From Aspergillus flavus (Eukaryota; Ascomycota; Eurotiomycetes; Eurotiales; Aspergillaceae): a stretch of DNA of 64,000 bases. Where the stretch lies: contig NC_092406.1 in NCBI RefSeq assembly GCF_009017415.1, positions 2,480,001 through 2,544,000 of the forward strand, read 5' to 3'. Below, piece by piece: positions 44,438-44,601 of this stretch. Both the position numbers and the translations under genes were made by a program. Numbering within the stretch: the first letter of the stretch is position 1; each line of letters begins with the position of its first letter. The notes beneath the pieces are model-generated. The model was not told where the DNA came from. It saw nothing but the letters and a program-made list of their open reading frames with translations, and searched no databases.

Positions 44438-44458
44438 AAAAAAAAAAAAAACAAAAAA
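44438..44458 (-). terminator. RNA polymerase III terminator of the tRNA-Leu gene
   Basis: Read on the minus strand, T6 followed by a T run of about 14 begins 5 nt after the tRNA 3' end. Confidence 0.85.
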
Positions 44459-44463
44459 GATGT

Positions 44464-44601
44464 TGACGAGAGTGGGATTTGAACCCACGCCCCTTTCGAG
44501 ACTGGAACCTTACTCCAGCTGAGAGATTATTAGTTATTTGTTTGTGAAGATAAGCATTTAATAGTGGTACTAACCGCCTTAGACCGCTCGGCCATCTCGC
44601 C
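44464..44601 (-). tRNA. tRNA-Leu(AAG) with a 56-nt intron-like insertion before the anticodon arm
   Basis: The mature tRNA would be 82 nt. The acceptor stem pairs GGCGAGA with TCTCGTC (one G-U), discriminator A. The D arm has GCC/GGC with the box A region TGGCCGAGCGG. The anticodon arm is CTGGA, loop GTAAGGT, TCCAG, giving anticodon AAG (Leu) after T33. The long variable arm is TCTC-GAAA-GGGG. The T arm pairs GTGGG with CCCAC around TTCAAAT (box B). The anticodon loop is uninterrupted, so there is no canonical 37/38 intron. Instead 56 nt lie between base 26 and base 27. G at position 32 is unusual, since a pyrimidine is normal. Confidence 0.87.
44519..44574 (-). other. 56-nt insertion in tRNA-Leu, resembling a spliceosomal intron
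   Basis: The insertion starts GTTAGT, has a branch-like ACTAAT 16 to 11 nt before its end, a short pyrimidine run and ends CAG. These are the motifs of the protein-gene introns in this window. Its GTTAG start can also pair with the CTAAT near its end. Removal restores a standard type II tRNA. The boundary may slide by one base without changing the product. Confidence 0.75.

Follow-up and report, generated by a model that had tools for sequence, protein, structure and literature searches.

Nine tRNA-Leu(AAG) genes were found in the genome of Aspergillus flavus, and each is interrupted between tRNA nucleotides 26 and 27. One of them lies at positions 44464–44601 of a 64,000-nt stretch of contig NC_092406.1 (C1:2480001–2544000), called the window here. 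Its insertion is 56 nt long and is a real, multi-copy, conserved feature. Similar insertions are found in tRNA-Leu(CAA), tRNA-Arg(TCT), tRNA-Thr(TGT), and tRNA-Leu(TAG) genes. Judged from their sequences, these insertions are very probably U2-type spliceosomal introns in transcripts of RNA polymerase III (Pol III).

Structure and copies of the tRNA-Leu(AAG) gene

An initial annotation of the window had proposed this gene, its limits, and its unusual intron. Rfam family RF00005 covers precisely 44464–44601 on the minus strand (39.9 bits, cut-off 29), and the match pushes the intron into the anticodon arm and misplaces that arm. ARAGORN run with the bacterial code reported no tRNA anywhere in the 64-kb window. 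Read from 44601 to 44464, the gene consists of GGCGAGATGGCCGAGCGGTCTAAGGCG, then 56 nt, then CTGGAGTAAGGTTCCAG and onward to TCTCGTCA. When the 56 nt are removed, ARAGORN on the joined exons returns a standard 82-nt tRNA-Leu(AAG), as had been predicted. The product has a type II cloverleaf, an AAG anticodon, and A73. Box A and box B are in place, as is a T6 run 3′ of the gene, in agreement with the annotation; the two boxes are assigned by their general motifs, and positions follow tRNA numbering. The anticodon loop is whole in the joined tRNA, so the gene has no 37/38 intron, and a standard intron at that canonical position was ruled out. The junction slides by one base, to 25/26 or 26/27, and has GT..AG ends at 26/27 only. 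Features of the gene are listed in Table 1.

The genome examined has 37,736,778 bases in 8 contigs. One protein of the window shares 99% identity with an Aspergillus flavus AF70 protein and a second one 96% with an A. oryzae RIB40 protein, which places the genome in the A. flavus/oryzae group. When the gene with its flanking sequence was used as a DNA query, nine Leu(AAG) copies were located on five contigs (1, 2, 4, 6, and 8), with five copies on contig 4. A query of exon 2 and 14 nt of flank recovered the identical nine places. The pattern TGGCCGAGNGGTYNAAGGC matched 13 places, namely the nine Leu(AAG) genes and four tRNA-Leu(CAG) genes with an ordinary 37/38 intron. A one-mismatch pattern gave 60 matches against 60 in the reversed control; 14 were exact, and 13 of these were the same nine and four genes. 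The insertion is present in 9/9 Leu(AAG) copies. No intronless copy was found by the genome DNA and pattern searches, in which only the best candidates were scored and a very divergent copy could have been passed over.

Over the nine copies, the exons vary in 1/82 columns and the 5′ flank in 59/60. The first 8 intron columns are invariant, one of the last 16 varies, and 31/35 interior columns vary. The near-invariant ends, GTTAGTAC...ACTAATAATYTCTCAG, contain the donor, branch site, and acceptor. The GTTAGT, ACTAAT, and CAG elements named by the annotation are thus kept in every copy. Intron lengths are 51–57 nt, and a run of five or more Ts lies within 14 nt 3′ of the gene in all nine. Because the exons are near-invariant and the flanks and intron interior are variable, the family appears to be maintained by selection or gene conversion. 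Inside the intron, the conserved parts are mainly those that a spliceosome would read. We consider this pattern the strongest evidence against a chance origin of the signals.

The annotation had also allowed that the gene is dead. A family of pseudogenes or dead copies, with unspliced RNA that goes unused, is very unlikely, and the idea was rejected because all nine copies have the insertion, their exons are near-invariant next to a variable flank, and the searches turned up no AAG copy lacking an intron. Of 314 leucine codons in six raw open reading frames of the window (these may run through short introns), 147 are CTT or CTC, which tRNA-Leu(IAG) would read. A point in favor of decay comes from mature Arg(TCT), whose G1:U72 and U73 are perhaps unusual.

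The annotation had suggested running tRNAscan-SE and ARAGORN with non-canonical introns allowed. ARAGORN with introns allowed gives Glu(ctc) for seven copies and Arg(tct) for the other two, and Leu(AAG) for none. A standard tRNA finder therefore misnames these intron-bearing genes.

Table 1. Coordinates of the tRNA-Leu(AAG) gene in the window (minus strand, window positions) and of tRNA genes with GT-AG introns elsewhere in the genome (contig positions, C1–C6).
Feature	Location	Strand	Remarks
tRNA-Leu(AAG) gene with intron	44464–44601	minus	Rfam RF00005; ARAGORN on joined exons
Exon 1, nucleotides 1–26 with D-loop extras, 27 nt	44575–44601	minus	1/27 columns variable, nine copies
mRNA-type intron between nucleotides 26 and 27, 56 nt	44519–44574	minus	
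Predicted 5′ splice site GTTAGT	44569–44574	minus	Invariant in 9/9 copies; one mismatch to GTRWGT (PMC5832005)
Branch site ACTAAT, predicted branch A 44530	44529–44534	minus	Fits RCTRAY; 11 nt from intron end, 9/9 copies
Predicted 3′ splice site CAG	44519–44521	minus	Invariant in 9/9 copies
Exon 2, nucleotides 27–73, 55 nt, whole anticodon loop GTAAGGT	44464–44518	minus	0/55 columns variable, nine copies
Box A TGGCCGAGCGG	44584–44594	minus	Presumed from the general motif
Box B GGTTCAAATCC	44475–44485	minus	Presumed from the general motif
T6 run, likely Pol III terminator	44453–44458	minus	
tRNA-Arg(TCT)	C1:2665606–2665736	plus	59-nt intron at 33/34, GTAAGT...ACTAAT...CACAG
tRNA-Thr(TGT)	C4:4171952–4172088	minus	55-nt intron at 32/33, GTGAGT...ACTAAC...AAAAG
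tRNA-Leu(TAG)	C6:3350942–3351096	plus	63-nt intron at 32/33, GTTCGT...ACTAAC...CCAAG
tRNA-Leu(CAA), three copies	C1 at 5832675, 5833533, 5833778	plus	54–59-nt D-arm introns near 25/26

GT-AG introns in four further tRNA families

GT-AG introns with branch sites were found in four further families, represented by three Leu(CAA) genes and single Arg(TCT), Thr(TGT), and Leu(TAG) genes. Their presence strengthens the spliceosome option of the annotation, under which these introns would be removed as in mRNA. When the introns are removed from Arg(TCT), Thr(TGT), and Leu(TAG), ARAGORN on the joined exons gives standard folds with the expected anticodons. The three Leu(CAA) genes are clustered within C1:5832675–5833918. 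Their available sequence is partial, with the 5′ ends, and in copies one and two the part beyond the anticodon region, lying outside it. The sequence of the third copy reaches far enough for an ordinary 37/38 intron to be read. The GT-AG pair of the first copy lies two bases further upstream, at 23/24, and the joined sequence is nonetheless identical over the part read. Thr(TGT) has an apparent 10-nt 37/38 intron besides its GT-AG intron, in the same anticodon loop, and Leu(TAG) has an apparent 11-nt 37/38 intron besides its own.

In total, 15 introns in five tRNA families begin with GT and end with AG (15/15). In Arg(TCT), Thr(TGT), and Leu(TAG), the tRNA fold fixes the junction, which cannot slide, and GT and AG are the sole possible ends. 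The branch motif RCTRAY is present in 12/15 introns and a CTAAC/TTAAC variant in the other 3/15, at 11–14 nt from the intron end. The acceptor is YAG in 13/15. Lengths are 51–63 nt, compared with 57, 66, 57, and 57 nt for four mRNA introns modeled in two window genes, and the annotation's remark that the 56-nt insertion is sized like nearby spliceosomal introns is borne out. The modeled mRNA introns have donors GTATGC, GTAAGG, GTACAT, and GTGAGT, and CTAAC or CTGAC before CAG or TAG. Fungal U3 introns are described in the accessible part of PMC5832005 as having donor GTRWGT and branch RCTRAY, the latter 6–36 nt from the end. The branch motifs and distances of the tRNA introns agree with these fungal values and with the four window introns.

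Chance occurrence of the signals was estimated by shuffling. In 20,000 shuffles of the Leu(AAG) 56-mer, GT..AG fell at an allowed junction in 0.1%, and together with a branch motif in 0.01% (strict) to 0.045% (loose). For six introns of five families (20,000 shuffles each), GT..AG fell at an allowed junction in 0.03–0.52%.

Paralogues were sought with four genes joined into a single query. Two more Thr(TGT)-like genes (C1:1843966–1844049 and C3:3606998–3607080) match in their exon parts alone, with 97–100% identity. Their span of about 84 nt fits a 72-nt tRNA plus a short 37/38 intron, without the 55-nt intron. One Leu(TAG)-like gene (C3:4264698–4264790) matches at its ends (90% and 100%) and spans about 90 nt, against 81 nt for the mature tRNA. 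Judged from these spans, the two Thr(TGT) paralogues and the Leu(TAG) paralogue seem to lack the GT-AG intron. The same joined-query search of the genome gave no match for an Arg(TCT) paralogue, and for Leu(CAA) only the second copy matched, in pieces.

The tRNA family search scored 63/1246 candidates, and the tRNA inventory is therefore incomplete. A branch-motif pattern gave 24 matches, against 15 in its control; nine are the Leu(AAG) genes. Ten of the 15 remaining matches were examined, in nine stretches, and no tRNA was found in four of these stretches. Four scans for a box-A-like word and box B separated by a long gap, in which intron sequence was not used, gave 45, 67, 70, and 41 matches against 31, 19, 43, and 45 in reversed controls. 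The matches were read by eye from the first 80 letters, and many chance matches were discarded. It was a D-loop word, and not box A, that picked up the Leu(CAA) copies. A wider-gap scan gave 37 places (control 18), 5 of which were examined, and the set of tRNAs with two introns may be larger than described here.

Possible routes of intron removal

Pol III would transcribe the Leu(AAG) gene from box A and box B as far as the T run. U1 and U2 would recognize GUUAGU and ACUAAU in the precursor, and the spliceosome would join nucleotide 26 to 27 via a lariat. End trimming and modification would then yield mature tRNA-Leu(IAG), which would read CUU and CUC. The Leu(CAA) and Arg(TCT) genes found, and the single Thr(TGT) and Leu(TAG) copies, would follow the same pathway at other positions. 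The 37/38 introns of Thr(TGT), Leu(TAG), and Leu(CAA) would be taken out separately by tRNA endonuclease and ligase. We infer Pol III use, spliceosomal removal, the order of removal, and essentiality from the sequences. Avoidance of T runs in the intron was considered as a sign of Pol III transcription and set aside as weak, because TTTT arises in just 29–56% of the shuffles of single Leu(AAG) introns, the nine copies share their ancestry, and TTTT does occur in the Leu(TAG) intron.

Several observations weigh against spliceosomal removal. Pol III transcripts lack the 5′ cap that aids splicing, an obstacle that U6, itself a Pol III product, shows can be overcome. The Leu(AAG) copies are related to each other and do not represent nine independent events. 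The Arg(TCT), Thr(TGT), and Leu(TAG) genes were first noticed through the branch-motif pattern, though they also appear in the intron-blind scans. Donors match GTRWGT exactly in 4/15 introns, with one mismatch in 10/15 (nine of them Leu(AAG)) and with two mismatches in 1/15. The Thr(TGT) and Leu(TAG) introns finish in AAG instead of YAG, and the TTTT inside the Leu(TAG) GT-AG intron is a possible Pol III stop. Three further points concern the tRNA endonuclease. At the GT-AG junction, 3/4 central pairs of a bulge-helix-bulge can form in 15/15 introns, compared with 0–2 in five 37/38 controls. The predicted fold of the Thr(TGT) precursor contains 3 donor-branch pairs. Finally, nucleotide 32 is expected to pair with the third base from the end of an endonuclease intron. 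One 37/38 control, Glu(TTC), fails this pairing, and 4/5 tested satisfy it, namely those of Thr(TGT), Leu(TAG), Leu(CAA), and Leu(CAG).

These points bear on the second option of the annotation, in which tRNA endonuclease cuts at an unusual site and pairing of GTTAG with CTAAT brings the ends together. Such an intron, with a relaxed bulge-helix-bulge of the sort that red algae, nucleomorphs, and Archaea have, is unlikely here. Non-canonical introns are known from nucleomorphs and Cyanidioschyzon (PMC4090602), and relaxed motifs from Archaea (PMC3978253), according to the accessible parts of both papers. The 3/4 central pairs at all 15 junctions leave room for a relaxed motif; GTNNGT donors together with conserved tRNA bases may or may not yield this score by chance. 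A shared 25/26 junction would also suit Leu(AAG) and the three Leu(CAA) genes, if the ends need not be GT-AG. However, the complete motif (two 3-nt bulges and a 4-bp helix) is absent at the GT-AG junction in 15/15 introns, of which 12 were scored for the full motif and the three Leu(CAA) introns for the central helix. GT..AG ends with branch motifs recur at several positions across five families, three of which have a single possible GT-AG junction, and the interior of the Leu(AAG) intron is free to vary. GTTAGT and ACTAAT can pair at 6/6 positions, as had been noted, in Leu(AAG) alone; the donor and branch pair at 3–5 of 6 in six other introns compared, and the predicted folds of the nine Leu(AAG) precursors and of the Arg(TCT) and Leu(TAG) precursors do not contain this pairing. 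Only the Thr(TGT) fold shows it. In addition, ordinary 37/38 introns apparently lie in the same Thr(TGT) and Leu(TAG) genes, apart from the GT-AG introns, and the two kinds in one gene look like separate introns handled by two machines. These results lower the probability of the endonuclease option.

Other removal routes, such as IRE1-type cleavage or self-splicing, have a negligible probability. The 3′ junction of Leu(AAG), CAG^CTGG, resembles CNG^CNGN, the general IRE1 motif. By eye, this motif is matched neither by the 5′ junction GCG^GTT nor by the junctions of Arg(TCT), Thr(TGT), and Leu(TAG). The catalytic core of a group I or group II intron takes hundreds of nucleotides, and introns of 51–63 nt are too short for known members of either group. 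Both routes were ruled out on junctions and length, and removal by the spliceosome is the reading carried forward here.

Canonical 37/38 introns are present elsewhere in the genome in four Leu(CAG) and two Glu(TTC) genes. The four tRNA-Leu(CAG) genes lie at C3:320314–326878, have 31–33-nt introns at the ordinary place, and serve as a control within the leucine set.

Known systems, consequences, and minor observations

Among the matches listed in a search of literature titles and abstract openings, none described spliceosomal introns in nuclear tRNA genes; most subscription journals fall outside its coverage, and a prior report may exist. U3 and U6 are named in the accessible part of PMC5832005 as the sole small structured RNAs known in 2017 to be often interrupted. 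The fungal U6 and U3 introns described there resemble the present ones as short GT-AG introns with an RCTRAY branch in small structured RNAs, and U3 likewise has paralogues with and without the intron. In contrast, the hosts here are tRNAs of five isoacceptor families, and in one family all nine copies found are interrupted. Fungal nuclear 18S rRNA genes are also reported to contain mRNA-type introns (Rogers et al. 1993, by its title as cited in PMC11782384), another case in a non-coding RNA gene of fungi. Those hosts are rRNA genes and not tRNA genes. rRNA genes are transcribed by Pol I.

Non-canonical introns in eukaryotic tRNA genes are called rare in the available text of PMC4090602, which lists nucleomorphs and Cyanidioschyzon and calls the splicing route of the nucleomorph introns unknown. 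The same text places introns of nucleomorphs, Cyanidioschyzon merolae, and Crenarchaeota outside 37/38, as here, with 25/26 among the archaeal positions, and reports sometimes two or three introns per nucleomorph tRNA gene. The non-canonical introns of Archaea and C. merolae are tied to bulge-helix-bulge motifs, some of them relaxed (PMC4090602 and PMC3978253, accessible parts), whereas here the complete motif is absent and GT-AG ends, donor, and branch are present. Canonical eukaryotic 37/38 introns differ from the present introns in position, signals, and probably enzyme. They occur in the same genome, and the Thr(TGT), the Leu(TAG), and at least one Leu(CAA) gene apparently combine one of them with an mRNA-type intron.

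Through its tRNAs, translation in this fungus likely depends on the spliceosome: all genes found for a major leucine tRNA, and some genes for four other tRNAs, would need mRNA-type introns removed. If the introns are spliceosomal, they form an exception at the core of translation, in the group to which the food mould Aspergillus oryzae belongs. Some tRNA precursors would then pass through two unrelated splicing machines. Spliceosome activity could regulate or limit the supply of these tRNAs and, with it, how CUU/CUC, AGA, and other codons are decoded. Recruitment of U1 and U2 by uncapped Pol III transcripts would become testable, as would the passage of one RNA through two splicing machines, the entry of introns into tRNA genes (from paralogues with and without them), and the tuning of tRNA supply by spliceosome load.

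A strict form of the search pattern had no match in viral contigs. A loose form matched 51 loci on prokaryotic contigs and 3 on viral contigs. Four have a box-A-like word upstream, and 0/54 have box B within 60 nt downstream, so these matches are taken as chance. An AT-rich, intronless Leu(tag) tRNA lies at C2:1627267–1627350 on the minus strand, adjoining another tRNA; by eye, it resembles a mitochondrial stretch in the nuclear assembly.
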